From an uncultured Eubacterium sp. (GTDB lineage Bacteria > Bacillota > Clostridia > Lachnospirales > Lachnospiraceae): a stretch of 64,000 nucleotides of DNA. Shown here in pieces: positions 3,228 to 63,602 of this stretch (within the stretch, counting starts at the first letter, position 1; each line of letters starts with the position of its first letter). The notes under the pieces are model-generated. The model was given only the letters and a program-made list of their open reading frames with translations. It was not told the origin of the DNA and did no database searches. The stretch spans positions 1 to 64,000 of the forward strand of contig CANDMI010000006.1 in the NCBI GenBank assembly GCA_947385775.1, written 5' to 3'. The translations under genes were made by a program, and so were the position numbers.

Positions 3228-3246
3228 AAAGCTTCATCTCCTGTTC

Positions 3247-10550: not shown

Positions 10551-12005
10551 TTATTGTATTTTAAGCTCAAACCAAAAGCAGGCTCCCGCCCCATTTTCAC
10601 TAATGACCCCGTACCGCGAAGCGTGGGCGTTTAAAATTTCCTTTACAATGGATAAACCAAGCCCCGTCCCATGTTCGCTGCGCCTGCGCTCGCGGCTGGT
10701 AAAATACCGATCCCAAATATAGGGAATGTCCGCCTTAGGAATCCCCTGCCCATGGTCATATATTTCTACCCGGACGTTTTGCTCTTTTCGATACGCCAAA
10801 ACGCCTACAACCTGATCCTCGCCCACATGGGTGATGGCATTCGCAATCAAGTTATAAAACACCTGGGAGATCCGCTGTTCATCCGCCATAGCCATAAGTC
10901 CCGGCTCTATGCGCCGCTCCATCAAAATCCCCTGCCGCTCACAAACAACGCGAAACTGAAAAGAAACTTTTTGCGCAAGCTCACTTAAATGGACAGGCTG
11001 AAAATCAAAGGCCGCACAATTGCTCTGCAACACAGAATAATCCAAAATATCATTGACCAAAAGCGTCAGCCGCTTGGCTTCCCGTTTTATAACCGCCGCG
11101 TCGCTTTGGCATTCTTCTTTGTTTTTCCATGACAGATCCTCGATCTTTTCCGCATAGCCGCCAATCAGCGTCAGAGGCGTTTTTAAATCATGGGTAATAT
11201 TGGCAAGCAGCTCACGGCGGGATTTTTCCAGTCTGGATAAACTCTTCGCCGCCGCATCCAAAGAATCAGACAGCGCGTCCAGCTCCGCGCAAAAGCCCTT
11301 TTCAAACGCCGCGTCCTCCCCCGCGCCCGTAAGTTTTCCCGCCTGAGCGCAAATTGCCAAAACAGGCTTTGTAAACCGCTTGGCAAAAAAAAGGCAAGGA
11401 TAAAGCCCACAAAAAGCAGCAGCCCGGTAACGGCAAACAGGATTGTCCGAAGTATTTTAACGGTTGGCTGCACCGCGCCCACCGGAGTGTTCATATAAAG
11501 CGCAACCGTTTTATCCCCACAATGAATGAGCTTTCCATATACTAAATGGCTGCCGCCGATCTCGGTGGCAGGCGTAAACGAAACGTACCCGCCAGGGCTT
11601 TCCAAAAGCCCCTGCAAAAATGAGGCGTAACCTTTTGGCAAATTCCGGTACTTCCCGATCTGCCAGCTCTGCTTTTTTTGTTTCTTCTTCCTGACTTTCT
11701 TGCTCCTGCGCGTATGCCGGGCTGTATTCGTCCACCCGGCATAAAATATTCCCGTCCATATCTGTCAGGATGACCTGCATGGAATTTTCATAGGCAATCC
11801 GGTCAACAATATGATAATCCCCTTCCTTTTCCATATTTTCAGCAATTTCACCCGCCGCGCGTTTCACATTTTCCAACTGCATCCAGTCATAAAAGCTTTG
11901 AAGAAAGACCGTCTGGAGCAGCCACAGGAGCGCCAGCGTGACCATAGAAAGCATCGCGAAATATTTCCACAGCTTTATCCCGATAGAATTTTTACTTAAT
12001 TTCAA
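10551..12005 (-). pseudogene. Sensor histidine kinase with two compensating frameshifts
   Basis: Three consecutive pieces make one kinase. The N-terminal piece (12005 to about 11635) has a membrane segment and the start of an extracytoplasmic domain. The middle piece lies in another frame (about 11635-11385) and finishes the sensor domain, the second membrane segment and the start of the HAMP linker. The C-terminal piece (about 11385-10551) has the dimerisation box ITHDLKTPLTL, N box NLIANAITH, G1 DHGQGIP and G2 GTGLGLSIVKE. Removing one A from AAAA near 11635 and adding one T to the T8 run at 11381-11388 (coding strand) restores a full 480-codon kinase. As read, translation stops early. It overlaps the response regulator gene by 14 bases, the usual operon layout. 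Confidence 0.85.
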
Positions 12006-12660
12006 ATTTATATCCCACTCCCCGAAACGTTACGATATAATCCCGACACTCTCCAAGATGGCCCCGAAGCAGCTTAACCTGCCAGTCAACCGTGCGATCT
12101 TCCCCGCAATAATCATATCCCCACACAGCGTTTAAAATAGCGTCCCTTGATAACGCTATGCCTTTGTTTTTTACAAAATAAAGCAGCAGATCGTATTCCT
12201 TCGCCGTCAATTCCACCCTATCTTCATCGATATAGACATTCCGCCCAAGCGCATCTATCCTGATCCTGCCCATTAAAATGCCCTCTTCCTTTCGCCTGGG
12301 CTGTCGGCGGCTTGTCACAACGCGGATTCTTGCCATCAGCTCTTTTGGCGAAAACGGCTTAACCACATAATCGTCAATCCCAAGCTCAAATCCCATCAGC
12401 TTGTCATATTCCGCGCCCAGAGCCGAAAGCATGATGATCGGGATATCCTTACGCTTACGGATTTCTCTGCTTGCCGTATAGCCGTCCATATCCGGCATCA
12501 TAATGTCCATTACAATAACATCATAATCGTTTTGTCCGCAAAGCCAAACTGCCTCCCTGCCGCTTGCCGCCGTGTCCACAATATGCCCCTCATGCTCTGC
12601 ATATCTGGAAATCAGCTGCACTATATCCGTTTCGTCATCCGTTATCAAGATCCGCGCCAT
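11992..12660 (-). CDS. OmpR/PhoB-family response regulator
   Basis: The 222-residue protein has an N-terminal receiver domain, with acidic pocket DDE at 8-10, phospho-acceptor in VIVMDIMMPDMDGY (about D52) and the conserved Lys in VVKPFSP. A C-terminal winged-helix DNA-binding domain follows (ELTAKEYDLLLYFVKNKG, TVDWQVKLLRGHL, FRGVGYKFE). It is the partner of the broken kinase directly downstream, with overlapping reading frames. If the kinase is truly inactive, this regulator would be without its cognate input. No clear target genes can be named; the downstream gene order gives no transporter. Confidence 0.92.
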   Translation of the reverse strand: MARILITDDETDIVQLISRYAEHEGHIVDTAASGREAVWLCGQNDYDVIVMDIMMPDMDGYTASREIRKRKDIPIIMLSALGAEYDKLMGFELGIDDYVVKPFSPKELMARIRVVTSRRQPRRKEEGILMGRIRIDALGRNVYIDEDRVELTAKEYDLLLYFVKNKGIALSRDAILNAVWGYDYCGEDRTVDWQVKLLRGHLGECRDYIVTFRGVGYKFEIK

Positions 12661-41293: not shown

Positions 41294-43219
41294 TTATATA
41301 TCCTCCACCTGCGCCTGCAAGTCGTCCGACATAATCTGCACATTGGCGTTTTCCGCCGCAATCTCCTCGGTATTGGCGGCTATCGTTGCGACCCGGTTGC
41401 TCATATGGTTGATGTTGTCAATTAACTGCTTAATCGACGAAACGCTTTCATCCACCTTCGGGATCGTTTCATCCGCCTGCTGGTTATTATTTGCGATCAG
41501 AGTTTTGATCGACATCGAAAGGTTTCGGATTTCTTCCGCCACAACCGCAAAGCCGCGTCCCTGCTCCCCTGCTCTTGCCGCTTCGATCGAGGCGTTTAGG
41601 GAAAGCAGGTTGGTCTTATCCGCAATGCCTACGATGCTCGCGCTTGTGTTTTTATATATTTCAATAAAGTGCATAATGCTCTTAAGCGACTCGTCCAAGC
41701 TGTAGCAGAAATTTGAAATCTCCTGTAGCTTGTTGGCCAAATCCGTCGCTTCGTTTGCAGACGCTTCGTTCGCTTCGCTAAGTTCTGTGACCGCGTTGGT
41801 CAACGTGCCAAACTGGCTTCGGATCGCGTCGATCTTGCGGCTTCTGGCCTCATGCTCCTGCTTTTGCTGTTTATTCACATCCTGGAGCTTGCGTTTTTCT
41901 TCCTCTACCACATCCTTAATATAATGAATGCAGTTATCCTTTACATTAACGCCATTAAAGATCGCGCACGCCATTTCATAACAGGTTTCATAGCCGCAGG
42001 CGCCACAGTTCAAATTCTGCTTTTCCTTTGTATCCTTATACATATCCCGCATAATTTGTTCCAGCTCGCTTGCGCTAGGGTCTTTGATCTTGATCGCTTT
42101 TGTGGAATCGTATTTGCGTATAAAATCTTCCAGCTTTAGCTCCTTAAACGCTTCCATCAAATTATCATAGCGCTGCTGCGGCGTAAGCTGCTTGCTCCAC
42201 GGGCTTTTATTTACTTTTTTAAACGGGCGCGACCCCCGCACATTCTGCTTATCCACGGAACGCATTTTTTCGATCGTAAGACGCACGTCATCCGTGTTTC
42301 TGGACGGCTCCGTCGCAGGCCCGTAGATACAGCCCTTGGAACAATTTAATATATCCACCATAAACGGCAGCTCCGCCTTATGCTCGATCCGCTTTTGATA
42401 TTCCTCTAAATACTCGTAGGCTTCCTGCTCTCCTTCCACCTGCATGACTACTTGATTTTTTCCAAGGAAATGCTCTACGTTTTCTTTTAACCCTCCCGGC
42501 ATCGGGTAAAGGGAGCCAAATCCATATTCCAACTCGTCTGTATATTCCTGCGCCTTCGTGTAGCCTGTCCCAATATGCTCCATCAGCTTTGCGAAAGTCA
42601 CATTGTATTTTACGTATCCATGATTGTTTGGATCTGTGATCTCTATTTTTTTCGCCACGCACGGGCTGATAAATACTAAATCATCTGAAATATTCAAATA
42701 TTTTTTTATGTAGATCGCCATACACATCATTGGGCTTTGCACCGGCATCATGCGCGGAAGCAATTTCGGTATATATTTTTCCACATAATTTACAACCGCA
42801 GGGCATGGCTGGCTGATGCCGCCTACAAAATTGTGCTCTTTTATGTATTTTAAATAGCCCCAGGTCGTTATGTCCGCGCCAAAGGACACGCTATAAATAT
42901 GCTGCACGCCCTTGGATTTCAAATATCCAAGCACCCGCTTATACTCTCTTGGATAATTCGCCAAAAACGCCGGAGCGACAATTACGGACATCTTCTTTCC
43001 AGCCTGTAAGTCAGCAAAAAACGCCTTCGTATCATCCTGATATTGTCTGGCATCATGCGTACACGCTTCTAAACACGCGCCGCACGCAATACAATTGTCA
43101 TTATTTACCCGAACGCTCCCGTCTAATGCGACATTTGAAATAAGCGTCGGGCAAACACGCACACATTTGTTGCATCCTGTGCATTTTTCATTTGTAAATA
43201 CCAATTCCTGAATATTCAT
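41294..43219 (-). CDS. Iron-only hydrogenase-like sensor fused to a chemoreceptor signalling domain
   Basis: 641 residues, no membrane segment. N terminus: two 4Fe-4S ferredoxin motifs (Cys 13/16/19/23 and 43/46/49/53). Next an iron-only hydrogenase large-subunit domain: ISQPCPAVV (C139), [11 protein letters not shown] (C187) and [10 protein letters not shown] (C293, C297). These match the four H-cluster ligands of known enzymes, but the proton-relay Cys just before the first ligand is Pro, as expected for a sensor rather than a turnover enzyme. A further Cys-rich FeS domain follows ([15 protein letters not shown], about 430). The last 170 residues are a methyl-accepting signalling coiled coil with tip [20 protein letters not shown]. 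It probably reports hydrogen or redox state to the chemotaxis system or another partner. Confidence 0.9.
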
Positions 43220-43876: not shown

Positions 43877-43961
43877 GCGGAAGTGTCGGAACTGGCAGAC
43901 GAGCAAGACTAAGGATCTTGTGGGCAATGCGCTCGTGTGGGTTCAAGTCCCATCTTCCGCA
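43877..43961 (+). tRNA. tRNA-Leu (anticodon AAG), integration site of the downstream element
   Basis: 85 nt, class II. Acceptor GCGGAAG/CTTCCGC with discriminator A; anticodon stem-loop CAAGA-CTAAGGA-TCTTG, giving AAG at positions 34-36; T arm GTGGGTTCAAGTCCCAT. The AAG anticodon needs A34-to-inosine editing by a TadA-type deaminase to read other CUN codons; it is rare among bacteria but reported in Firmicutes. The integrase gene's stop codon lies 5 bases beyond the 3' end, so the 3' half of this tRNA is the likely attachment site. Confidence 0.93.
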
Positions 43962-43966
43962 CTGGT

Positions 43967-45364
43967 TTAGAGGGCTGGAAGCTTTGATTTATCAAGGTTT
44001 CTGGCTTTTCTTTTTCCTGAAAAGCTGATTATGTTTTGGTCACTTTGGTCACTTTTCATTTTGCCGCTTCCTTCTAACGCATTCAAAACCTTGTGATCTG
44101 TTTCCTCGCTATCCTCAATATTATAAATATAGTGTTTTAAAGTTGTTGATTCATCTGCATGTCCCAACATATCTTTAACAATGCTAATGTTAACTCCATT
44201 ATGAAGCAATGTTGACGCATACGTTTTCCTGATTTTGTGCATCGTTTTAACCGGAATGCCAATGTGTTCGCATCCTCTTTTGACTTGTGCGTCTACGGCA
44301 TCCGGTGAAATGCAATGCCCATCTCTCACAAACAGAAAATCTTTGTATTCATAGCCATACTCTTTGTTTATTTTTTCAATTCTTTCAATAATCCTCTTAG
44401 CCTCTGCTGTCAGCGGCAACCACCTGTCACCGTCTTCTGACTTTGTATAATCCACAACTCGGAATCCCAGACTTTTTATATTATTAAGATCGCTTGTATC
44501 AAATTCTTCTACAAGTTGCCTGTGTATATGAATCCTGTTATTGACTATATCTGTTTTGCAGATTGCAAGAATTTCACCTTTCCTTGTCCCCAACTCAAAA
44601 TCAAGCATCACTGCTAACGGCGCTGTATTAGAAGGATTGTTTTCCAGTCTTCTTTTCATTTCATTAATAAACAGTTCCTTTTCACCAGCTTGAAATACCT
44701 CTTTTACACTAGGTTTCTTATTGCTGCTTGCAAATTTCTTTTTATTTACTTTTATCCGGTAAGGATTTTTCTCTATGTATTCAGCATCTACCGCATACTC
44801 TAACGTCTGTTTCAGGATGCCACACATATTATAAAATGCTTTCTTTTTTAGTTCATGAGTTGCTAACACTGAATTGAAAAAGTCATCAATGTTAATTTTT
44901 GTGAGATTCTTCACAGAAATGGCAATAAACTCTTTATTTGGTTTGTAAAATCTATTCCAATCCGACATCATTCGCTTAACTGTCCCACTATTTACTTCAT
45001 TCATTTTATGCTTCATAAATTCATAAAATAAATTTTCTATAGACAGCTTTTTATTTTTCGCCTCTTCTGCCTGTCCTATCTCAATCGACAAATAATAATC
45101 ACAAATCACTTTTTGTAAATCACTTTTATTCTTTCTTTTTATTTTCCGTCGATTATTTGCTTTTGAATCATCAGGCAAATAACTATACCAAACATTTTCT
45201 TTCTCATTAAACCAAATAGAATATTGATGCTTCTTTAATATCTCCTCTCTTTTCTTCATTTTAACTTGTTCTTGCACATATGTTAAATCAATAATACCGC
45301 TTTCTGCTATATATTTCAATAATTCAATATCACTATTTTCCGTAATGTTAATTCCTCCATTCAA
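43967..45364 (-). CDS. int: Tyrosine recombinase/integrase
   Basis: 465 residues. Core-binding SAM-like domain (about 105-205) and catalytic domain with first Arg in LGTRKGEIL (about 258), HKIRKTYASTLLHNG (HxxR, about 375), LGHADESTTLKHYI (His and the nucleophilic Tyr, about 398-408). The N-terminal part, NSDIELLKYIAESGIIDLT and a motif resembling an arm-site-binding domain (YSIWFNEKENVWYSYL), is typical of integrases of Firmicute elements. The frame begins at TTG 45364; GGAGG lies inside the first codons and could instead serve an ATT at codon 7, so the true start is uncertain. It inserts and excises the element at tRNA-Leu(AAG). Confidence 0.92.
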   Translation of the reverse strand: MNGGINITENSDIELLKYIAESGIIDLTYVQEQVKMKKREEILKKHQYSIWFNEKENVWYSYLPDDSKANNRRKIKRKNKSDLQKVICDYYLSIEIGQAEEAKNKKLSIENLFYEFMKHKMNEVNSGTVKRMMSDWNRFYKPNKEFIAISVKNLTKINIDDFFNSVLATHELKKKAFYNMCGILKQTLEYAVDAEYIEKNPYRIKVNKKKFASSNKKPSVKEVFQAGEKELFINEMKRRLENNPSNTAPLAVMLDFELGTRKGEILAICKTDIVNNRIHIHRQLVEEFDTSDLNNIKSLGFRVVDYTKSEDGDRWLPLTAEAKRIIERIEKINKEYGYEYKDFLFVRDGHCISPDAVDAQVKRGCEHIGIPVKTMHKIRKTYASTLLHNGVNISIVKDMLGHADESTTLKHYIYNIEDSEETDHKVLNALEGSGKMKSDQSDQNIISFSGKRKARNLDKSKLPAL

Positions 45365-50016: not shown

Positions 50017-53000
50017 TTACGCTTCAATGGCTTTCGTTGTTTCCTCAATGGCTTTTTGCGTCTGCTTCTTCTTCGCGCCAAAAGTGAGCAGTCCATCAAT
50101 TTCATCCTTTGCCTTGGACGCTGAATCAACCAGGTTATTTAAATTTGTGTCAAGCCAGTCGATCTCTTCACCTGTGGTTTCTAACGCTTTGTTGAGGTTT
50201 TCCTGGGCTTTTTCAATATCTTCCTGCGCTTTCTTTGCGTCTTCCTGGGCCTTCTTAGCTTCATCCGCTAATTTTTTCTGGGTGTCGCGCGTTGTTTCGC
50301 CGCCGGAATAGTCTGGTATGACTAGCTGGTCGAACTGTGACTTTGCATTGTCGAAAACTTTATCCATTATATCTTGGATTGTGTTTTCAGAGTTTTTCTT
50401 TTTCTTATTTTTCTCTGAATATTTTTCATACATCCAAGTGTTTTTAAACGCAGGATTGTTTTTGGCGGCATTATTGATAAACTTCCCAACGGCGTTGCTT
50501 AATGAACTTCCTAAATAATTCGTGTAGTCAAATGCATTTAGATCCGCCATTGCAGCCTTAAGGTCGCGGATTTGTTCAGCGCTCGCGCCAGCGTATGAGG
50601 CAAGTTTTAACAAGTTGTCACAGTCAGTCTTTGTTTTTAACTCTTCCTTATTGACGTTCCATTTTTCAATGGCAAGCTTGACAAGATATAGCCGCACATC
50701 TTCGCTGGCAATTCCTTCTTTAATCAACGCATTGATTTCATCATATGTGGCGTTTGTAAGGTCATCGCACCCCTGTGCCGTTGCGTACTTCTGCGCCTCC
50801 AGCATTCTTTCATTTTCAGCAAGGGCATATTCCACAACGGCGGTGGCATTTGCAACACCTTGTTGTTCCAGCATAGCGATGGCAGAATCCTTGGTTTCTT
50901 CCGTCACTTCCGTTAAAGCTTTTGATCCATAAATGTATGCGGAAGCAAGGTCATTGAACGCGCTCTGGCAGGCGTTTATGTCGTCCGGCGAAGATGTGAC
51001 CGTATCGATGAATTTATTGTACTCATCTGTGTATGCGCCAAACTCTTTTTTGAAATCTGCGCTGAAAACAGAGGAGAAGTCAAAATCTTCTTTGTCCAGG
51101 ATGTCGGCGTATACTTTATCTAACTGGTCTAATCCTTCTGAAAGGCTCTGCACGTCGGCAAGGGCGTTCCCAGAAAACTTAACGCTGGCAAAGTTTTGGG
51201 CTTCCCGGTTGCCTTCTTCTAAACTTTTTATTAGGGCTTCTATTTGCTTACGTGTAGCTTCTGAAATATTATCGCCGTTAAGAATCTCTTTCAAATCCGC
51301 GACAATGGAATTGGTTATCTTATCCATGCGCTTCTGGACTTTTTCAGCGGCTTCCTCAGCAGAATCAGCTACAATGCCAAATTCTGTCAGGAGAGAAGTC
51401 TTATCAGTGGAAGAGAAGTCGCCGGAACGGAATTTTTCAAGGTAGGATTCGAGGGAGGAGAACTTCTTTTGGTAATCGTCAACGTTAGCATCGGAAATTA
51501 TATTTTTGAATGAAAATGAGTCTTTGCCATTTTCAGCTTGCGCTTTTTTTACCCCATTTAAGGCATTTTCGTAATCCTGCGTCGTTAATGACGCTTCGCC
51601 AATCTTTTTCTTCTGATCTTCTATTGCATTGATGAATTCATCGGACTGTGCAAACTCTAATTCTTTTTTAGTTAAAGAATCCACCCAATTAGCGGCATCC
51701 TGGTTTTTTGCCCCGCCATTAACGCTTGAAAGTTTATGTTTTAAGGCAAGGACGGGTTCTTCATCTGCTACAACGTCATAACCTAGACGGATTTTTAGGT
51801 CAACAGGGTCTTCTTCGAGTATTCCAGCCAGGATATTGATATATTTATCCACTTGCGATTGGATCTCACCAACCGGCATGTCATCGGTGTCCAATTTAAA
51901 AAGGCTGACCATTGCGTCTTTTGCGTCTGGGTTTGACAAAATAGTCTGTATGATCCCATCCACATACTTACCGACATCAGTTTTTGAATGGAAACCTGAC
52001 GCAATGCCAGCATCCAGATTATTAACCATTAAAGACGCTGCATTTTTAGATTCTTCATTGAGTTTTTCATAATCCTCATTTGTCATCAGGTATGCATTTG
52101 CAAGGGCTTCAACGTCTGACAGCGCAGATTCTATTTCTGCGTTATATGTTTGAACCAATGCCTTCGCTTGTTTTTTGGCTTGCGCAAATTCTTTGTCTGT
52201 GGTGTTTTCGTCAATGCCCAACGCCCCATAGATATAGCTTCCATATCCAATGTCTTTTTCAATTTCAGACAAAGATTCAATTTCTTCATGCGAACCGGAA
52301 CCGACAATTTTTTCAATTTCACGGTATCTCTCGGCGGACATATTTTGCACCGCCTTTAATTGCTCCACCGCCTCGGTTATAGATATGCCTTGTCCAACGT
52401 CCTGCGTGCCTAAATCAAACAGTTTAGCCCAAAACCCAGTGTCATGTGTGTCTTCCCATTGTTTAATTATGTCGTTTCCATCAGAATCCTTTCCTGATGA
52501 GATCAGCATGTTGTACGCTTCTTGTTGCGCTTCCTTGTAAGCATCCCTTAATTGTTCCACATCGCCCTTCAAGGATAAAATAGCGATTCCTTCATCCGTG
52601 TAGCCTTGCACAAGGGTTGGGAACATATCGGCGATCTGGTTTACAATATCGTTATATTCCGAATATTCATCAGCGGTTAAAGAGACATTTTGTCCAAGGT
52701 TATTTACGCCTTTAGATAAATCCTCATATTTGTCTGCCAGCCCCTCAACCGTTTCAGCGTTACTGTTTGCCTTGTCAAGCGCAGAATGGTAATTGGACAT
52801 TAATTCATTTACACGTTCCTTACAATGTTCAGCGGAGTGGGCAAGCTCGTCAATTCCTTTAACAGCTAATTCAATTCCTTTTGAGATGGCCCACATAGCA
52901 ATCATATTGCCAGCTATGCCAAGGGCTTTTGTTGCTTTAGTTGCAGTTTTAGAAGCGTCAGCCGTCGCTTTTAAACCTTCCTGCACCTGTTTCTGCCCCG

Positions 53001-55461
53001 CTGCAAACGCCTGTGCGGAGCCTGCCGCCCCTTTTGTCTGCACCGCATATTCCTGTGCCTGCGCGCTTGCGCCATCCATGATTGACGCAAACCTTTCTGT
53101 CGTGACGGCCCCTTCCGCGCATTCCGCCTCGTATGCCTGCAAAGCGGCCGTGTCTATTTTAAGCTGCGCCGCCTGTTTCGCCATGGAAGCGTTTAATTCC
53201 TCCTGTGCGATCCTGCGCGCCTTTAGCGACGTTACGAGCTTGGCTTCCCCTAAACCATTATCCTCTGTAGGCTGGACAACCTTGAATATGCCTTTATCCT
53301 TAATGCCCGCAAACAGCCCCGCTCCCAGCCCGGCTGTCCCCGCCATGTCAAGCTTGTCTGCAATGCCCGTCACGCCCTGCAATACAGCGTCAAGGGCATT
53401 GACGGCCCCTTTCATCCCATCCGTGTCCGCAAAAGCGTTCACAAGCTCCGTCCACGAATTGGATAAAGAGTTAATGGAACCGGATAAGCTATTAGCGCTC
53501 TTTTGCGCTTCCCTCATTGCCGAGCCGGAGCCTTCGGAATAATCAACAAGCATCTTGTCCATCATATCGATGTTTTGTAGCAAAGCTGCAAATTTGGACG
53601 CCTGATATTTTCCCGCCACATTCGTGATGATCTCAGCCCTTAATGGGTCGTCCTCATCCAGTTCGTTAAATGTTTTCGCCAAATCCCTGATAATGTCGAT
53701 AGGGTTCCTTAATTTTTCAGCGCCATTGACAAACTCCGTCATGGATGCGTTCGCCTTTTCCAAAGTCCCTGTGATCTTATCGGAATTGACATTCTGTAAG
53801 TTGATCAGGATGGACTTGGCGGCGTTCCCAACCTCGCCGCCCCCTGATTTCGTGACCGCTTCCATTGCGCCAAGCATTGCGCTCAAGTCTTCCACCGCCA
53901 CATTATAGCTGGACGCGACCGTTCCAGCCTTGCTCATGCCAGCCGCCATATCCGCCATTGCGACGCTGTTGCGGTTGCAGACTGAATTTTGTCCGTCCAA
54001 AATTTCATTGATCTTTTCCGCATTTCCATTCAGCTTATAGGCGGCATTGCTTGCAAGTATGTATTTATCTGCCAGTTCCGCGCTCATGTCGCCAGCCGCC
54101 TGCGCAAGCAAGGACTGCTCCGCCATAGCTTCGCCCTTTTCGCCATAGAAGCCTGACTGCGACATGTTTTTAACGCCAGTGAGGTAGTCGCTTGCGGTCT
54201 TCCCGTATTTGCTTGCGGAATCGTAGGCTGATATGCCAAGCTCTTTTAACTCTTGTGATGTCAGGTCGGATGTCTTGCTGATTTCAGTCAATATATCATC
54301 CAGATCTTTTATCTCTGACACCGCCCTCTTTACCTCTGTAACGCCCTTTGTCATCATGGCCAACGGGCTTGCCCATGCAGTGAGGGCCTTTGCCCCTTCT
54401 TTTATCGATTGGAGCCAGGAGCTTCCTGTCTTGCCAGCCTGCCTTGCCGCAGACGCAACGCCGTTAAATGACTGCTCAATTTCACGCACCCTTTGCGTCG
54501 TAAGCCCCGCGCCGGATGCAGTCTCAGAAAGCATCTGCTTTAACTGGCTGCCCCATTTCTTATGTGAAGCGGAGTTATTGTCATAAAAGGACTGTATTTT
54601 ATCATGCAAAGATGACACGGCTGAATCCTTGGCAAACTCAGCGTTCATTTTCCTGACTGAATTTGTGACGGCTTTCACTTGCTTATCCAGTTCCTTTTCG
54701 GCTTCGATCAAAGCTTTCTGGTTTGCGGCTGCGCCATTTTTTGACAATTCTGCGGAAGCATTGTTTAGGCTCTGCAATGACCTTGACAATGCATCTGTGC
54801 TGATCCTCGCGTTCCCATTGCCGTCCGTCCACTGCATTGTGCGCGATATCAAAGCCTCAACCTTCGCTTCATAACCCCCTGTGTCAACCTGCATCTGGAT
54901 TTTGTTCGCAAGTGCAAGCTCCGTAAATGATGTTTTGAGTGCATCCGCCTGTGACCGCAGCGTATTTAATTCAGACACATTGCTAACGGATGACAATTTG
55001 GCAGTCAATGACTCCAGGCTTACTTCCGCGCCTTTTATTTCTGTTTTGAATGCGTCAAACCCTGTGTTTTTGAGCGCAAAGTTGTTGAGGCTGTTTTTTA
55101 ACGTTTTAATGTCTGCATTTAATTTATCTGTGTTTATCCCAGTCTGGTCAATCCCATTTTGCACAGAATCAGAAACGCTTTTCCCAATGGCTTTCCCAGC
55201 CTTGTCAATCTGCCCCTGGTCTATATTGATCTTATGCAATGTGACCGTCTGGTTGGCTATCCGCTCTAACTGCTTTTTGATGTCCAGGATTGAAGCCGGA
55301 TCGATTTCAGCCTGTATTTTTAATTTATCAATCTGCCCTTGGATTTTATCAATGTCGTCATTGATATTAAGTTTTGATTTCGCTTCATCTAATTTTGCCT
55401 GGAGTTCAATTAAAAACTCATTCATGTAAAGTTTTGCCCTGCCTTTCCTGCCAGCGGCCAT
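50017..55461 (-). CDS. Phage tail tape-measure protein (TP901 type), N-terminal part
   Basis: 1814 residues to the TAA at 50017-50019; start either ATG 55461 or ATG 55425 (MNEFLIELQ), neither with a strong SD. A helical N-terminal region precedes the TP901 core (about 380-690): DLDDILTEISKTSDLTSQEL, ASKYGKTASDYL, MADMAAGMSKAGTVAS, SLSNSWTELVNAFAD. A long coiled-coil region follows. The protein would set tail length and guide DNA ejection. The last codons read AIEA-stop-YKAIKKYSAYAD, and the same frame then stays open for 1502 further codons into the NlpC/P60 part. The joined ORF of 3316 amino acids is very large even for tape measures. No other tail gene is visible nearby. Confidence 0.87.
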   Translation of the reverse strand: MAAGRKGRAKLYMNEFLIELQAKLDEAKSKLNINDDIDKIQGQIDKLKIQAEIDPASILDIKKQLERIANQTVTLHKINIDQGQIDKAGKAIGKSVSDSVQNGIDQTGINTDKLNADIKTLKNSLNNFALKNTGFDAFKTEIKGAEVSLESLTAKLSSVSNVSELNTLRSQADALKTSFTELALANKIQMQVDTGGYEAKVEALISRTMQWTDGNGNARISTDALSRSLQSLNNASAELSKNGAAANQKALIEAEKELDKQVKAVTNSVRKMNAEFAKDSAVSSLHDKIQSFYDNNSASHKKWGSQLKQMLSETASGAGLTTQRVREIEQSFNGVASAARQAGKTGSSWLQSIKEGAKALTAWASPLAMMTKGVTEVKRAVSEIKDLDDILTEISKTSDLTSQELKELGISAYDSASKYGKTASDYLTGVKNMSQSGFYGEKGEAMAEQSLLAQAAGDMSAELADKYILASNAAYKLNGNAEKINEILDGQNSVCNRNSVAMADMAAGMSKAGTVASSYNVAVEDLSAMLGAMEAVTKSGGGEVGNAAKSILINLQNVNSDKITGTLEKANASMTEFVNGAEKLRNPIDIIRDLAKTFNELDEDDPLRAEIITNVAGKYQASKFAALLQNIDMMDKMLVDYSEGSGSAMREAQKSANSLSGSINSLSNSWTELVNAFADTDGMKGAVNALDAVLQGVTGIADKLDMAGTAGLGAGLFAGIKDKGIFKVVQPTEDNGLGEAKLVTSLKARRIAQEELNASMAKQAAQLKIDTAALQAYEAECAEGAVTTERFASIMDGASAQAQEYAVQTKGAAGSAQAFAAGQKQVQEGLKATADASKTATKATKALGIAGNMIAMWAISKGIELAVKGIDELAHSAEHCKERVNELMSNYHSALDKANSNAETVEGLADKYEDLSKGVNNLGQNVSLTADEYSEYNDIVNQIADMFPTLVQGYTDEGIAILSLKGDVEQLRDAYKEAQQEAYNMLISSGKDSDGNDIIKQWEDTHDTGFWAKLFDLGTQDVGQGISITEAVEQLKAVQNMSAERYREIEKIVGSGSHEEIESLSEIEKDIGYGSYIYGALGIDENTTDKEFAQAKKQAKALVQTYNAEIESALSDVEALANAYLMTNEDYEKLNEESKNAASLMVNNLDAGIASGFHSKTDVGKYVDGIIQTILSNPDAKDAMVSLFKLDTDDMPVGEIQSQVDKYINILAGILEEDPVDLKIRLGYDVVADEEPVLALKHKLSSVNGGAKNQDAANWVDSLTKKELEFAQSDEFINAIEDQKKKIGEASLTTQDYENALNGVKKAQAENGKDSFSFKNIISDANVDDYQKKFSSLESYLEKFRSGDFSSTDKTSLLTEFGIVADSAEEAAEKVQKRMDKITNSIVADLKEILNGDNISEATRKQIEALIKSLEEGNREAQNFASVKFSGNALADVQSLSEGLDQLDKVYADILDKEDFDFSSVFSADFKKEFGAYTDEYNKFIDTVTSSPDDINACQSAFNDLASAYIYGSKALTEVTEETKDSAIAMLEQQGVANATAVVEYALAENERMLEAQKYATAQGCDDLTNATYDEINALIKEGIASEDVRLYLVKLAIEKWNVNKEELKTKTDCDNLLKLASYAGASAEQIRDLKAAMADLNAFDYTNYLGSSLSNAVGKFINNAAKNNPAFKNTWMYEKYSEKNKKKKNSENTIQDIMDKVFDNAKSQFDQLVIPDYSGGETTRDTQKKLADEAKKAQEDAKKAQEDIEKAQENLNKALETTGEEIDWLDTNLNNLVDSASKAKDEIDGLLTFGAKKKQTQKAIEETTKAIEA

Positions 55462-55516
55462 GCCACAATTTTCAAATCCTGTTTATATTTTCAAGAACTG
55501 TGGCATAGCCACTGGC
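55450..55516. repeat. 18-bp inverted repeat over the tape-measure start
   Basis: Arms 55450-55467 and 55499-55516 match as inverted copies with two mismatches (GCCAGCGGCCATGCCACA), 31-nt loop. The upstream ATG of the tape-measure ORF lies in one arm, so the fold could hide that start. Confidence 0.75.
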
Positions 55517-55708
55517 GTGTTTGATATTTTTGGTCCGCTTTGAATTTTTGGTTAAAACTCTTATTTTTTTGCCTAATTTCCATTTTTTTGCCTAAAATGC
55601 CTTAATTTTTTGATTTTTTTCAGATTTTTTTGATTTTCGGAAATTTTAGATTTAGCACTGTCCACCCAGCGGCTTTATCTATAAAAGCCTGGCTGGGCGG
55701 TATGTGCC

Positions 55709-55864
55709 CTGCGCCTTAGTGGAGTCCAGCGCAGAATTTTTTTGCGCGCCTAGTGGAATCAGCGCGTCTGCGCCTTAATGGAGTTCAGCGCAGATTATTT
55801 GCACACCTTGGGATCGGTGCGTTTACGCCTTAGTGGAGTTCAGCGTGAATGCCGCTATAAGCGG
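55709..55864. repeat. Array of five stem-loops with conserved loop and covarying stems, plus a sixth hairpin
   Basis: Units at 55709-55734, 55744-55767, 55768-55793, 55801-55820 and 55825-55846, spaced 24-35 bases. The loop consensus CTTAGTGGAGTTCA is kept in four of five, while stems differ yet stay paired: CTGCGC/GCGCAG twice, CGCGC/GCGCG, ACGC/GCGT, and a GCAC/GTGC variant. A further small hairpin is at 55852-55864. The array lies between the polymerase and the tape-measure gene and would be transcribed as leader or spacer RNA on the minus strand. The remaining 55517-55708 part is very T-rich with two copies of TTTTTTTGCCTAA; 55865-56064 shows nothing clear. Confidence 0.8.
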
Positions 55865-56064
55865 TGAAGCTTATAACAGCCCTTGTAAAATTGCATTTAT
55901 TGTAACTGCAACATTACAGCATTTTTCTTAGCGCAAGGGTTGGTACGCACATAAGCTTTTCCACAACCTTATATGCCCCCTGCGCATAATCCACAGTACT
56001 ATATCTATTTGGGGAAAAGGCATTACTAGGCTTACGCTCCGCTCATGCCCCTCTCTAATAGGGA

Positions 56065-58995
56065 TTATGAAACCCTAGTAAAATCAAGGCTTCCTGGGAT
56101 TTTTGCGGGACTTTTTTCACTTTTTTTGAAACAGGATAGGAACTTTTTATGCCCTTTATCATAATCATATAATACGGTTAACAGCCTGTCCCTTACATCC
56201 CCATTTTTAGCAAACGCATAAGCGATCAATGAACTCATTGTGCTTTTATTTATAGTAAGGTTTTTCAATTTTATCATGCAGTTCTCAAACAGGTTTTCCA
56301 CACTCTTTGAATAGTCCCCTTTTGACCTATCCAGTTTATGAACTTCCCTGTCATATTCCTGAACAATGGAAACCACTTTCTTATACTGCTTGCTGTCATT
56401 GCTTTTGTCAGCCTTATACTGGAAAACCATATTCAGGCTGCATGTATATGGCATTAATTCTTTATGCTTCCTTAAATCAATCACGCCTTCTTCCACAATA
56501 TCGGCTAAAATTTCCATAGGGCAGTTAAAAGCCCTTATTTTAGATTTGTCAACCGCATTTTTCTTCTTTTTCCCCTTCATCTTTTGTTCCTGCACTTTAG
56601 AATAAAAAACAGGGTACTTACGTCCGTCTTCTGGCTGCATACAGGCCAGCCCTTTTAGCCTCGCCAGCTCTTTGTTTACATTTATGTCAAACATACGTTT
56701 TGCAGAGTCAATTGCCGCCTGCGCTAAGACAGAGCATATGATCGTCACATCTTCCAGCTCCTTATCCTTACCTCCACCGTCATAATAGTAGCTCAATGCT
56801 AACTGCGCAATGTTGCTCGCTTCCCCTATGGCGTATTGTGAGGATGAAATTTTACTGTCCATCTCCGCATAGGACTTCATATCTTTCTTATATTCACTGT
56901 TGCATTTTTCAATACCGTTAATTATTGTTGGATATTTTAAATACGCTTCCTCCGCAATGTTTACAATGTCAGGCTGGTTTGTCGTGTATATCATATCCGT
57001 ATCCAGATCCTGGCCGTTCAAACGGTCTTGTATATCCGTGCCAATCCCATTTATCACTATTACGTTATTCCCCAATTTAGGAAAATACCTTTGAATTTCT
57101 TCTGAATATGTATTGACCAGGCGCACGATATTATGTGGCGCGTTATGCGGCGAACGGAAGCCCGCCAGCCCCTCACCGTCTTTAAACCTTGCCGTGTAGC
57201 ATTGTATCCCGTTCTCTATCGGTTTAAAGCATGGCTCTTTAAGAAAATCCTGGCCCGTCACTTTCATCAGCAATGCGACTGGGTTGCCGCAAATGGTGAG
57301 GTTGTCGCCATATTGCAGAAGCTTCCCCAACTTCAACCTTTCATTCTTAAATTTGCTTATAATTTTTCTCTTCTTTTCTTTAAAATACTCTGTATATTTA
57401 AATTTATCATTCCATCTATCCAATGCTGTGAGGACATTGTTCACGCTGTATTTTTTAGAAGCGTTCGCCTCTAAATGTTTTATAAAGGCTTCATGGCTTG
57501 TCTTCAACAGATTGCAGTAATCGACGCTTGCCTGCGCGACATTCTTTAACGTCCCCCTGTCTGTGCATGGGAGGCTGTTGTTTATCTGGTATGAGCTTCT
57601 CTGCAATTCCCCATATTTGCTTGCATGCGCGGTCTTCAATATTTCAAACGTTTCCTTATGCTTTCTCATAAACCGCTTGTAATATGCATATGCGGCTTTT
57701 TCACTCCCGCCCATTATGTCAATAAATTTTATCCACTTTATTGAATTTTCCGTAACGATAACTTTAATGTCCTTCACATGGAACGCATTGCCAAACATAT
57801 CCTTTACAACCGCCATATCATAAGCGTCCCCGTAATAATCCTTGAAATACCCTTGTATATCGCCCCTAAAGAGGCAGGATTTAAAGAAATGGCCCCTGCA
57901 ATAAATAAAGCCGTCCATCTTTTTGTCTTTTGGAAAAATGGACTCGTCGCATAACCCCATGCCATCCCACAGGGTGTTCTTAACCTCCGCCTTTCCATTC
58001 CGTCTGTCAACATAACACTCTTTTTTATAAATAACGTTTTTCTTCAACGGATAATCCACGATTCCATTTTCCATTAACGCAGATTTTGATTTCCTGACAT
58101 ATGTCAGTTTAGGGTTATCCCTCCGTTTCTTTTTATAAAACGTAAATCCAAATTTATTTATAATCCCCTCCGCAGCGTCCCAGTCAATCGCTGTTTTCTC
58201 ATATTTGACATCATGTGTTTTCACAGAAACGGCATTGGCCAAGGCGCATACATCTTCATCTTTTACAATCAAAATATTCCCCATAGGGATTTTTATATAA
58301 TCGATCGCTGTAGCCGTGACCAATGGCGCATATGCCGACATTTCAACTATTTTAGCGTTTTCATAAGGCATCTTGTCCCATAAATCCATTGTAATGTATT
58401 TCAACGCTGTCCCATGCAGGTTTTCACGGATAAAAATGCAATCCCCCTCTTTTGCCCTGCCTGTGCTTCTCATAAGCATCTTATAATGGACGCTTTTCCC
58501 GTTAACGGCGTTCCCTTCCCTATCATAATCCAGCCAAGTGACAGCAGCCCCATTTTCATAATAATAATCCCTTAATTCATCTGCGGACATCCCGCCTTTC
58601 ACGCCGTAATCAAACTTCATCACAATAAAGTCCCTGCTCCCGCCTTTTTTATTGACAGACACAGCATGGCGCATCATATACTCTGAAAACAGGCAGTTGT
58701 TTATGGCCGCTTCCCCCAGGTCAAGGCGCGGCTTCCTATCATCCGCCCCATCCCCTTTTCCCACGTAATTATTTACAGAATAAAGGCTGTTGGCCTGTAT
58801 GCTTTTGATTTTAATTTTCTTTACTTTTTTATCTTTATCCAATAACACTCCTCCACTAAAAGCTGCCGCATATGACCTATCGCTTATGCAATAAATTTGC
58901 ACTCCATATTTTTCCACTTTGTCTTTTAAACCTGCTATTATTGCAATTCCTTTGCCCGTATGAATTGTTCTTGGTTTATCCCCATTTTTCTCCAT
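56065..58995 (-). CDS. Single-chain two-barrel RNA polymerase homologue (YonO / eukaryotic RdRP-like)
   Basis: 976 residues. The catalytic motif is NGQDLDTDMIYTTNQPDIV (Asp 663, 665, 667), equivalent to the DxDGD metal-binding loop of cellular RNAP beta-prime, QDE-1-type RdRP and phage SP-beta YonO, with Thr in place of Gly. Supporting motifs in the expected order: TLWDGMGLCDE (about 341, the DG motif of the first barrel), CLFRGDIQGYFKDYY, IKVIVTENSIKWIKF, then GFRSPHNAPHNIVRL (about 612) and NVIVINGIGTDIQDR (about 644). The C-terminal 280 residues are helical. By analogy with YonO it may be a DNA-dependent RNA polymerase that transcribes late genes of the element, such as the tape-measure gene downstream. 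No SD is visible before the ATG. Confidence 0.85.
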   Translation of the reverse strand: MEKNGDKPRTIHTGKGIAIIAGLKDKVEKYGVQIYCISDRSYAAAFSGGVLLDKDKKVKKIKIKSIQANSLYSVNNYVGKGDGADDRKPRLDLGEAAINNCLFSEYMMRHAVSVNKKGGSRDFIVMKFDYGVKGGMSADELRDYYYENGAAVTWLDYDREGNAVNGKSVHYKMLMRSTGRAKEGDCIFIRENLHGTALKYITMDLWDKMPYENAKIVEMSAYAPLVTATAIDYIKIPMGNILIVKDEDVCALANAVSVKTHDVKYEKTAIDWDAAEGIINKFGFTFYKKKRRDNPKLTYVRKSKSALMENGIVDYPLKKNVIYKKECYVDRRNGKAEVKNTLWDGMGLCDESIFPKDKKMDGFIYCRGHFFKSCLFRGDIQGYFKDYYGDAYDMAVVKDMFGNAFHVKDIKVIVTENSIKWIKFIDIMGGSEKAAYAYYKRFMRKHKETFEILKTAHASKYGELQRSSYQINNSLPCTDRGTLKNVAQASVDYCNLLKTSHEAFIKHLEANASKKYSVNNVLTALDRWNDKFKYTEYFKEKKRKIISKFKNERLKLGKLLQYGDNLTICGNPVALLMKVTGQDFLKEPCFKPIENGIQCYTARFKDGEGLAGFRSPHNAPHNIVRLVNTYSEEIQRYFPKLGNNVIVINGIGTDIQDRLNGQDLDTDMIYTTNQPDIVNIAEEAYLKYPTIINGIEKCNSEYKKDMKSYAEMDSKISSSQYAIGEASNIAQLALSYYYDGGGKDKELEDVTIICSVLAQAAIDSAKRMFDINVNKELARLKGLACMQPEDGRKYPVFYSKVQEQKMKGKKKKNAVDKSKIRAFNCPMEILADIVEEGVIDLRKHKELMPYTCSLNMVFQYKADKSNDSKQYKKVVSIVQEYDREVHKLDRSKGDYSKSVENLFENCMIKLKNLTINKSTMSSLIAYAFAKNGDVRDRLLTVLYDYDKGHKKFLSCFKKSEKSPAKIPGSLDFTRVS

Positions 58996-59506: not shown

Positions 59507-59749
59507 TTAACTTTTTAGCTCTTTTTCCCTCTTCACAGCTTCAAGCTTCTTTTTCTTTTCTTCTATCCATTCATCCAATTTTTTATCGATTTCATCCCCT
59601 TCATTAACAAACTTATCCATATAATAATTCGCTTTCTCAACATCGCCAAAGTATAATTCATCCCATGCATATGCCAAATAAAACACTGAGCTTCTTGTGT
59701 GCATGTTGCATTCAAAAAACGTATGCAACAGCAGGTCATCCAACTTCAT
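59507..59749 (-). CDS. Small protein of unknown function
   Basis: 80 residues, acidic N-terminal half with aromatic residues (FYLAYAWDELYFGDVEKANYYMD, as two short motifs) and a Lys/Glu-rich C-terminal helix (EWIEEKKKKLEAVK). Its start overlaps the end of the ParB-like gene by 14 bases, so it is translationally coupled. No family recognised; the tetratricopeptide-like first half may be a single helical repeat. Confidence 0.65.
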   Translation of the reverse strand: MKLDDLLLHTFFECNMHTRSSVFYLAYAWDELYFGDVEKANYYMDKFVNEGDEIDKKLDEWIEEKKKKLEAVKREKELKS

Positions 59750-60416
59750 GTTCCTCGCATTTTTTACAGCTAAAATAACGCGCTGGGATTGTTTCCATCC
59801 CTAAATCTTTACATGCCCTTACCCTTTCATGCCCGCTAATAATTGTCATATCCCTTGTAATAAGGATAGGTTGAAAAACCCCGCACTCTTGAATGCTGTT
59901 AAGAAAATGAATATAATTTTCCCCTGTTATCCTTCCAAAATACATCTCATGGTTAGGCAATGGCTTTAATTCGTTTATCCTTACATCATAAATATTGAAA
60001 TCTTTTACCTTATCTACAATCTTCCATACTTCTGTATTATTCCGTTTATATTCCTGTAATCGGCTCCTTACCTCCCTAGTGGACATCCCCTTTAAATCAT
60101 TTTGAGAAATAAAATCCTCCCTGTCTTCAACAGGCAGTTCCATCAATAGATAGATTTTAGTGGCTTCCAAATTAGAAATCGCTTGCGAATTTGAACCGTA
60201 CTCTTGGGCAATCCTCATAAACTGGTTTGCAGTCCTTTGGCTAAACCCAACTTTGGATTCCAGCCAATCACCCCACCCTCCATGAGGGATCAACTTTTTC
60301 GCTTCAATAAATTTCTGTCCCATAAGAATAATATTTTCAGCTGTTTGGTTTTTTAAAGCGACAATTTCTTTTTCTATTTTCTCCAGTTCAATATTTTGTA
60401 CAACCGTCTGTTTCAT
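59736..60416 (-). CDS. DUF3102 + ParB-like nuclease-fold protein
   Basis: 226 residues. The N-terminal half resembles DUF3102 (IVALKNQTAENIILMGQKF, then IPHGGWGDWLESKVGFSQRTANQFMRIAQ), a helical, probably DNA-binding domain common on mobile elements. The C-terminal half is a ParB/sulfiredoxin-type domain: LKPLPNHEMYFGRI, VFQPILITRDMTIISGHERVRACKDLG (GHxRxxA box). ParB-fold proteins act in partition, replication control or as NTP-dependent DNA clamps. The short C-terminal CKKCEEHE could bind metal. Probably a DNA maintenance or regulatory protein of the element. Confidence 0.82.
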   Translation of the reverse strand: MKQTVVQNIELEKIEKEIVALKNQTAENIILMGQKFIEAKKLIPHGGWGDWLESKVGFSQRTANQFMRIAQEYGSNSQAISNLEATKIYLLMELPVEDREDFISQNDLKGMSTREVRSRLQEYKRNNTEVWKIVDKVKDFNIYDVRINELKPLPNHEMYFGRITGENYIHFLNSIQECGVFQPILITRDMTIISGHERVRACKDLGMETIPARYFSCKKCEEHEVG

Positions 60417-61496: not shown

Positions 61497-62726
61497 CTAC
61501 GCAATTTTCTTGTTCTTACTATCATAAACAACCGCTTCTTCAGTGCCATCAACCACACCAGAAGTCACAACGGCCTTTTCCGCATCCGCCCTATCAGGAA
61601 TTGAAAACATAACTTCTTGCATTGCTTTTTCAATAATGCTTCTCAATCCCCTTGCGCCAATCTCCTTCTTAATTGCCAATTCAGCAATCCGCTTCAATGC
61701 ATCGTCTTCAAACTCCAACTTCACGCCATCCATAGCAAACAATTCCTGATACTGCTTTGTGAGCGCATTTTTCGGCTCTGTGAGTATCTTGATTAGGTCA
61801 GTTTCAGATAACGGACTCAATGTTGCAATGACAGGCAGTCTGCCTATCAACTCAGGCATAAGGCCGTATTTTAACAAATCCTTTTGCTGCACACCCGATA
61901 AATCCAATTTGTCTGCCCCACAGCCGCTTTTAACGTCTGCGCCAAACCCAATAGGGTTCCCATTGTTATTCCTCTGCCTGATAATTTTTTCCAACCCTTC
62001 AAAAGCCCCTCCGCAGATAAATAATATATTTGACGTGTCAATATTCACGCATTCCGCCTGTGGATGCTTTCTGCCGCCAGACAATGGAACCCTTACAACG
62101 CTGCCTTCAATAATCTTCAACAACGCTTGCTGCACCCCCTCGCCTGACACATCCCTTGTAATGGACATATTCTCACTTTTCCGCGCCAATTTGTCTATTT
62201 CATCTATGTAGACTATCCCTTTTTCAGCTAATTTACTGTCATAACCCGCATTCTGCAACAGCGTCAAAAGGATGTTTTCAACATCATCGCCTACATATCC
62301 GGCTTCGGTTAAGCTGGTTGCGTCCGCTATCGCAAACGGGACTCCAAGGAATTTCGCAAGGCTTTTCGCTAAATATGTCTTGCCGCTTCCAGTGGGGCCG
62401 ATAAGGAGTAAGTTAGACTTCTGGATATCTACATCTGATTTCTTTTCCTGCCTTAATCTTTTGTAGTGGTTATATATTGCAACAGCCAAAGTTTCTTTTG
62501 CTTCGTCCTGTCCAACAACATACTGATCCAAATGCGCTTTGATCTGTGAGGGCTTAACCATTTGTGCATTATGGGATGTTTCCATCTCTTCATCCTTGTT
62601 CAATATTTCATAAGCTTCCTGGGCGCAAACATCACAGATGCATCCATACTTACCCTTTATCAATTTCTCTGTTTCTGATTTTAGCTTCCCACATAGAAAA
62701 CATCTTTCTTCCTGTTTATTTGCCAT
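61497..62726 (-). CDS. clpX: ClpX-type AAA+ unfoldase encoded by the element
   Basis: 409 residues, full-length ClpX. Zinc-binding domain with C9/C12 and C31/C34; Walker A GPTGSGKT (110-117); pore loop GYVG (143-146); Walker B IVYIDEID (171-178); RKH loop SGGRKHPQ; ClpP-docking loop NPIGFGADV; sensor motif PELIGRLP and C-terminal [15 protein letters not shown]. All parts for unfolding substrates and docking to host ClpP are kept. As a mobile-element copy it may redirect host proteolysis, remodel element proteins, or replace the host unfoldase during takeover. It sits beside a DnaJ-like gene. Confidence 0.93.
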
Positions 62727-62774: not shown

Positions 62775-63602
62775 CTAAATTCCCCACTCCGACTTCAATT
62801 TATTTACAAGCAGCATTGGCCCATTATCCCCACCCAATACGTCAGGATGAAATTTAGCCGCCAGCGTTTTATAAAATTTCTTATAGTATTCTTTCTCTTT
62901 ATCAGAACTGTGGCCTCTGTTTAATGCGCCTGTCCCATAACCGCCGTAATAATTATTGTAGTTGCTTTGATAATTTCTCTGGTAGTCACTGCTTTTTTGC
63001 TCATATTCTTTTCTTGCTCTGTAATCCCTCTTTATCTTTTCAAAATACTCTTTGCCCCTCAATTTGCCTAAAATTTCAAAACACATGTCATACTCATTTT
63101 TCTGCACCCCATACTTTTCAGCAAATTTATGTTTCTTTACCATATACTCATGCAAAATAGCGTCATGCTTTTCTTGCGCCTTAAACTCTTCTGTCTGTGC
63201 AAATTCATCCCTTACCTTATCTTGTAATGCTTCCAGTTTGCTTTCTATTTCCGCCCAAACAATTTCAGGGTCTATACTCATTTTCTCAGCAATGCCATCT
63301 ATCTTCCTTTCTACAATGCAGTCATACCAACTAAAATCCACTAAATCATAATATTTAATGGTTGTTACATGATATTGCTTTTTTGTTGCCTTTCCTTTGT
63401 CATTGCGATAACTTTTATCGTGGACCGTTACCTTATACGCTGTTTTAATTGGGCGGTTAAACCTCTCCTCTGAATATGTATATCCATAGCTTGTATATGA
63501 AATCCCATTTACTGACCAATTGGTTGTGGTGACGCATAATTCTTTTCCACAGCCAACGGAATTTGAGCTTTTCATCTGTATTTCCTGTATATAGCAATGC
63601 AT
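62775..63602 (-). CDS. DnaJ-like protein with C-terminal J domain
   Basis: 275 residues. The J-domain helix and HPD motif lie at the extreme C terminus (YYKKFYKTLAAKFHPDVLGG, HPD about 252-254), preceded by a Tyr/Asn/Gly-rich linker (YQSNYNNYYGGYGTG). The N-terminal part (1-110) is unassigned; the middle (110-200) is helical and charged. HPD stimulates DnaK ATPase, so the protein may recruit host DnaK. AAAGGAAG precedes the ATG. It lies 48 bases before clpX, pointing to a shared chaperone function. Confidence 0.8.
   Translation of the reverse strand: MHCYIQEIQMKSSNSVGCGKELCVTTTNWSVNGISYTSYGYTYSEERFNRPIKTAYKVTVHDKSYRNDKGKATKKQYHVTTIKYYDLVDFSWYDCIVERKIDGIAEKMSIDPEIVWAEIESKLEALQDKVRDEFAQTEEFKAQEKHDAILHEYMVKKHKFAEKYGVQKNEYDMCFEILGKLRGKEYFEKIKRDYRARKEYEQKSSDYQRNYQSNYNNYYGGYGTGALNRGHSSDKEKEYYKKFYKTLAAKFHPDVLGGDNGPMLLVNKLKSEWGI

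Follow-up and report, generated by a model that had tools for sequence, protein, structure and literature searches.

A prophage in an uncultured Eubacterium sp. (Lachnospiraceae) carries a single-chain RNA polymerase that is confidently identified as a new subfamily of the known YonO kind, and behind its gene lies a well-supported new structured RNA. Both are encoded in the window, by which we mean the whole stretch of DNA analyzed here (64,000 nucleotides [nt]; positions 1 to 64,000 of contig CANDMI010000006.1, assembly GCA_947385775.1). We consider it probable that this prophage-borne enzyme is DNA dependent, uses D612, D614, and D616 for catalysis, and reads through the RNA into the late genes. 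The features on which the argument rests are the following.

56065..58842, minus strand: YonO-family two-barrel RNA polymerase gene, 925 amino acids (aa) from TTG; the open reading frame (ORF) stays open up to an ATG at 58995
56995..57009, minus strand: catalytic loop DLDTD, residues 612 to 616; Asp conserved in 51/51 aligned sequences
57145..57156, minus strand: RSPH motif, residues 563 to 566; R563 and P565 in 51/51, H566 in 50/51
55650..56060, minus strand: conserved structured noncoding RNA (working extent) in the spacer between polymerase and tape-measure genes; covariance-model core 55895 to 56059, 140 bits
56015..56053, minus strand: first hairpin of the spacer RNA
55654..56000, minus strand: stretch with several hairpins, some with CUCCAC-type loops, enclosed by a predicted long-range helix AGUACUGU/ACAGUGCU of 8 pairs
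55450..55516, minus strand: inverted repeat of 67 nt, a long hairpin, where the tape-measure gene starts, exposed by a sub-threshold Rfam match

The minus-strand ORF at 56065 to 58995, in which a first-pass annotation made from the letters alone had seen a polymerase, comprises 976 aa counted from the ATG. The TTG at 58842 is the likelier start, because GGAGG stands seven bases 5' of it; the ORFs of two relatives with ~79% identity to the window polymerase measure 936 and 928 aa when counted from the earliest start available (L057 and L058; L and G numbers denote loci and genomes holding relatives, L096 being phi3T). Relatives were gathered from 37 loci on viral contigs and 38 loci in named genomes. 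The gene exceeds 850 aa in 60 loci, of which 50 were aligned with the window polymerase (alignment A3, 51 sequences), the other ten being judged redundant by eye. This alignment contains 27 invariant columns, and in comparisons with five relatives, synonymous sites were near or beyond saturation with low nonsynonymous divergence (dN, 0.13 to 0.15 in four and 0.33 in L060). The ORF is therefore not a chance one, and its motifs FRSPHNAPHNI and NGQDLDTD had been read correctly.

Pfam and NCBIfam profile searches gave no significant match for the window polymerase, with no Pfam family at an expect value (E) of 0.01, PF05183 included. It matched PHROG 8308, listed under "unknown function" (E = 2.8e-80), to which YonO of phage phi3T also belongs (E = 1.9e-303); across 14 control genomes, this family was matched in Bacillus subtilis only. 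A profile-profile comparison of the window branch with 18 YonO proteins (probability 99.9, E = 1.6e-31, 548 columns) set the DLDTD loop opposite the DNDGD loop, with the catalytic triads in register and 18% identity. Additionally, 3/51 aligned members matched the Pfam RNA-dependent RNA polymerase (RdRP) profile (best E = 7.9e-07), 8/51 matched phrog_4291, named RNA-dependent RNA polymerase, and the homologue in phage PMBT24 carries the same name as its annotation. The suggestion that the subfamily and its partners may be undescribed holds insofar as PHROG 8308 has no assigned function, but the family is partly described already through that entry, the PMBT24 homologue, and the YonO-like enzymes named in other large phages (PMC7824862).

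The predicted structure of the window polymerase (predicted local distance difference test score, 88.5) matched QDE-1 and RDR2 over nearly its full length in a structure search, with 10 to 13% identity in the structural alignments, and the model of YonO ranks the same three PDB groups first. The fold is closer to the nonvirion gp64 (15.8) than to gp96 (12.2) of phage P23-45. PDB sequence searches gave no match with the single polymerase protein and only chance helical matches with the profile. Sequence profiles thus lead to YonO and the fold to QDE-1 and RDR2, which bears out the YonO/QDE-1-type polymerase of the first-pass annotation, including its expectation of two double-psi beta-barrels, assessed here by fold match rather than by strand-by-strand tracing. 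As modeled, the protein is shown by these computations to have a single-chain two-barrel fold and to be a member of the YonO family.

D612, D614, and D616 are invariant across the 51 aligned sequences, and position 615 holds Ser (40 sequences), Thr (10), or Gly (1). All 18 aligned YonO proteins have D-x-DGD, with Gly at the fourth place of the loop. This mark is specific to the YonO branch and belongs to neither the family profile nor the superfamily signature, and it is absent from the window polymerase, where the aspartates are kept while Gly gives way to Thr, as had been noted from the letters. The superfamily signature is given as DxDxD, with Gly not fixed (PMC10770324, PMC7824862). In a tree of 70 sequences (the 51 aligned, the 18 YonO proteins as a chosen outgroup, and PMBT24; a quick method with Shimodaira-Hasegawa-like approximate likelihood ratio support only), Thr arose once, in a clade of ten (support 100) beside nine Ser sequences. 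This single origin, the spread of Ser and Thr, and the low dN argue against decay and for Thr as an established loop trait in a family that is under selection.

The polymerase gene is interrupted in some relatives. Group I introns (RF00028) lie within it in three related phages (L004:5276-5525; L028:11723-11991; L031:11375-11617 and 11952-12268), that of L004 right at the catalytic loop. The yonO gene of phi3T is split by 415 nt (3119-3533), in which no Rfam intron reached gathering score; of the 76 YonO copies listed, 18 stop at the phi3T split point.

The polymerase and tape-measure ORFs are separated by 603 nt, parts of which are conserved in close relatives despite the near saturation of synonymous sites in the gene. 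The window spacer (415 nt) has a minimum free energy of -161.3 kcal/mol (z = -5.93, with 0/100 shuffles as low). Seven aligned RNAs share a consensus fold, with double changes at 25/45 predicted pairs and z values of -4.7 to -8.3 (40 shuffles each), against z = +0.47 for an equal-length stretch within the polymerase gene. Across 13 RNAs, 92.6% of the 323 cells pair as the model structure requires, against at most 47.6% for slid structures. Both sides change at 20/29 pairs, with 57 such cells versus 19.8 in shuffles (0/500 as high), in an alignment that was fitted to the tested structure, which favors it, and with shuffles that leave relatedness in place. The long-range closing helix runs to 8 pairs in the window and L058, 7 in L057 and L059, and 6 in L064, and it is unconvincing in L062 (6 pairs) and L061 (5 pairs). 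No Rfam family was matched at gathering score by the window RNA or by the RNAs of eight close loci, and low-threshold matches in the spacer were judged to be chance. The spacer had been called structured, and these results go further by indicating a conserved RNA.

The loop CUCCAC recurs in several hairpins of the spacer RNA. Among 11 RNAs, there are 20 copies of TCCAC (0 in L058), against a mean of 2.8 and a maximum of 7 in 300 letter shuffles, and GTGGA, which could pair with it, occurs in 9/11, often in the second hairpin. A kissing-loop contact between UCCAC and GUGGA may be hypothesized from these letters; GUGGA was not found in L059 and L061, nor UCCAC in L058.

The distribution of the RNA was followed with a covariance model (R1, 167 positions) built from seven RNAs, all polymerase neighbors. 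Over 38 sources, R1 recovered the seven builders, L060 (113 bits), and, weakly, L063 (32 bits, E = 1.6e-6); matches in L031 (E = 0.17) and L098 (E = 0.69) were rejected as chance. Adjacency is not strict, as the RNA of L060 lies 7 kb behind the polymerase gene. The ~7 kb between the two at that locus (L060:12890-20060) is other sequence, as if another element had inserted. Over 299 genomes of the host family, Lachnospiraceae, R1 gave 10 matches at E = 0.001. The six best (E <= 9.3e-8) comprise G000 (the window) and G308 (the L058 match again), which had both contributed to the model, and the new G299, G166, G157, and G290, the last being short (79 nt, essentially the first hairpin), and all six stand directly behind a PHROG 8308 polymerase. 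The four weaker ones (L197 to L200, E = 2e-6 to 9e-4) were attributed to chance, with no polymerase in those stretches nor in their genomes at E = 1e-10; this divide was set after the result was known. PHROG 8308 polymerases occur in 30/299 of these genomes, and most copies lack the spacer RNA. The RNA-adjacent polymerases of G299 and G157 are of a far-off type with DYDGD or DFDGD in the loop, whose letters are DFDSD in G166 and DLDTD in G290. A tape-measure homologue lies downstream of the RNA in L193, L194, and L195. The polymerase of L195 was missed by the default profile search and found only without filters and with PHROGs. At these three loci, the first hairpin (GGTAATA...TTATTATAAA type), immediately ahead of the RNA core, is unlike that of the Thr clade, and the later hairpins are common to both. 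Over 391 genomes of the host class, R1 found the window's own RNA only. The RNA and the polymerase are tied by genomic correlation across a small number of genomes rather than by a mechanism, and none of the open-licence papers searched describes such a link or this RNA.

A different large RNA occupies the same place in some sister phages. ROOL (RF03087), a phage and prophage RNA of unknown function often near tRNA islands (PMC12286853), was sought at gathering score in 23 loci, chosen rather than random and including phi3T and eight Thr-clade loci. It lies on the same strand behind the polymerase in five (L021:12997, L022:5606, L026:12965, L032:12965, and L004:8424), 226 to 249 nt from the polymerase stop in four and 2,270 nt in L004. 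RF03087 gave no match at gathering score in the window or in eight close-relative loci, and the window spacer was rejected as a ROOL for lack of an Rfam match at that score. A scan of 149 phylum genomes gave no ROOL match, but the controls gave none either. The word "polymerase" is absent from the main text of the ROOL cryo-electron microscopy paper (PMC12286853). Furthermore, a small conserved element, CCGTAATATGGA...CGCTATTGCCGAAGCG...AAATAYGGA, is present in part or whole within ~250 nt after the polymerase stop in L021, L022, L026, L032, L033, L046, L027, and L004.

Beyond the RNA, the window holds the tail genes and the left end of the prophage.

50017..55461, minus strand: tail tape-measure protein (PF10145, E = 1.4e-18; TIGR01760, E = 4.5e-29); the start is probably ATG 55425, which resembles the start in L057
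45508..49842, minus strand: minor tail protein (phrog_329, E = 1.6e-22)
43967..45364, minus strand: phage integrase, left end of the prophage (phrog_1, E = 6.2e-42; PF00589)
43877..43962, plus strand: tRNA-Leu (aag), abutting the integrase gene and, from its position, the probable attachment site

After the tRNA-Leu, the integrase, minor tail, tape-measure, polymerase, and further phage genes follow on one strand, and the scanned ORFs before 43 kb are chromosomal in appearance. The "giant tail gene" of the first-pass annotation is thus the tape-measure gene. Gene order was compared over 86 loci including the window, all polymerase bearing by construction and grouped by protein clustering; clusters were named from one representative each (HU-like and antirepressor-like being our own reading), and absences weigh little because many contigs are truncated. 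Recognized late genes were always downstream of the polymerase and on its strand. The downstream same-strand genes number 21 for HU-like, 20 for terminase, 18 for head protease, 16 for portal, 19 for the tail cluster, and 28 for exonuclease; counted by loci, terminase is found in 17, head protease in 18, portal in 13, and the tail cluster in 14. Other clusters differ, an antirepressor-like one standing both upstream and downstream and another mostly on the opposite strand. In phi3T, yonO is followed by an HU-type gene and then by the late genes.

The spacer had been said to lack an ordinary promoter, and a consensus scan of the minus strand found no sigma-70-like site inside it, which is weak evidence. 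The whole scanned region holds 19 such sites versus 13.2 (standard deviation [SD], 3.6) in shuffles. Expectation-maximization on the YonO clade (18 sequences) returned a motif, ATCGTCTTTAAGGGAGA, totaling 110.5 versus 45.7 (SD, 2.7) in 12 shuffle sets, with its best match 74 to 149 nt after the yonO stop in 15/18 loci. Control stretches scored 50.4 (upstream), 78.9 (the next 220 nt downstream), and 142.8 and 167.8 (two coding stretches). The motif is not put forward as a promoter because shared ancestry survives the shuffles and the published start lies upstream of yonK, where no copy was seen in phi3T. The wider Ser group gave a different motif (83.7 versus 47.1; SD, 4.0), and in the window's own group the search fixed on the RNA hairpins (97.4 versus 47.8).

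The interpretation that we prefer follows the precedent of SPbeta, for which YonO is reported to transcribe the late genes, starting upstream of both yonK and a noncoding RNA that is unannotated (PMC5467207). After induction, the phage enzyme would be made by the host RNA polymerase. The phage enzyme would then initiate within or close to the 3' end of the polymerase gene, cross the structured RNA, and continue into the tape-measure and tail genes, in the manner of YonO on the SPbeta late genes. The spacer RNA would be the first segment of the late transcript, released separately or kept as a leader. Because of the YonO precedent and the gene order, a late-gene role appears likely by analogy; the dedicated late-gene transcription of the first-pass annotation is consistent with both. 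Several observations weigh against the interpretation. In the Thr clade, the polymerase precedes tail genes and does not head the whole structural module, and the contig stops at 78,487, with the remainder of the prophage beyond it. The ATCGTCTTTAAGGGAGA motif lies off the published YonO start, and we know of no promoter for any YonO-family polymerase. Nonexhaustive literature searches returned no account of an active relative whose loop has Thr or Ser.

Other explanations have to be weighed against late transcription or alongside it. The RNA and the polymerase may be neighbors only because both head the late operon, the RNA serving the tape-measure transcript as a leader or in its processing and having no link to the polymerase as such. 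This is plausible, if somewhat short of an even chance, and compatible with the other readings: the tape-measure homologue after the RNA in L193 to L195, the persistence of the RNA while the polymerase type varies, and its distance from the gene in L060 all favor it, whereas no match with E <1e-7 in either genome sample lacked such a polymerase nearby, for a model built from polymerase neighbors and an RNA present in few genomes. More ambitiously, the polymerase and a large ornate RNA could form one functional module, with the enzyme producing, and perhaps acting together with, a dedicated RNA that would self-assemble through its UCCAC/GUGGA loops like the RNA-only cages of ROOL and GOLLD, the slot being filled differently in each phage (this RNA, ROOL, or the SPbeta late RNA); we regard this as speculative and rather unlikely. 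Packaging of the enzyme in the virion with or through the tape measure, for injection and early transcription as for P23-45 gp96 and phi14:2 gp66, seems less probable again. Its ORF is separate from the tape measure, its closer relative YonO acts late, its fold is nearer to the nonvirion gp64, and terminase, head protease, and portal genes stand downstream in as many loci as the tail cluster.

An RdRP templated by the neighboring structured RNA would agree with QDE-1 and RDR2 as the closest solved folds, with the annotation of the PMBT24 homologue, and with the three Pfam RdRP matches. However, the fold does not decide the template, because the model of YonO, an enzyme described as DNA dependent (PMC5467207), ranks the same folds first. 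YonO is also the nearest studied relative, and the window polymerase has no Pfam match itself; we give this reading very little credence. Slightly less credible still is a catalytically dead remnant or regulator. The Gly of all 18 YonO sequences speaks for it, but the aspartates are kept in every aligned member, purifying selection is strong, and Ser or Thr in 50/51 members is too widespread for decay.

To our knowledge, YonO is the only member of the family with biochemistry. YonO of SPbeta and phi3T resembles the window polymerase in sequence family, size class, predicted fold, and catalytic triad, as well as in the position of its gene upstream of late genes and in having a noncoding RNA close to the published start of late transcription. 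The two differ in the loop (DLDTD versus D-x-DGD) and at 18% identity, in the tape-measure gene that follows the window polymerase gene, and in the RNA, phi3T having RF03075 upstream of yonK. QDE-1 and plant RDR2, eukaryotic RdRPs of PF05183, share the two-barrel fold over nearly the whole chain; the window polymerase differs in its low structural identity and in having no match to that family. P23-45 gp64 (nonvirion) and gp96 (fused to the tape measure) are likewise phage single-chain two-barrel polymerases, and gp96 is further alike in its tie to the tape measure, the window polymerase being encoded by an ORF of its own. The window RNA resembles ROOL in being large, multihairpin, and prophage borne, and differs in being shorter and without an RF03087 match. 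YonO-type enzymes have been discussed as resembling a single-chain ancestor of cellular RNA polymerases, and the YonO promoter was left open (PMC5467207). A large sister branch with Ser or Thr for YonO's Gly makes the tolerance of an ancient catalytic loop testable. The new RNA, together with ROOL in the same slot, is a genomic lead tying ornate phage RNAs to a particular enzyme, and it is the first such lead known to us.

Other genes of the window were noted in passing. A ClpX-like ATPase is encoded within the prophage in the region of 61497-62726 and 62775-63602 (NF003745, E = 6.9e-180), as is a protein matching phrog_32441 (unknown function), whose C terminus we take to resemble a J-domain, and a DUF3102/ParB protein lies near both at 59736-60416. 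On the probably chromosomal side, 41294-43219 joins an iron-hydrogenase domain to a chemotaxis-receptor signaling domain.
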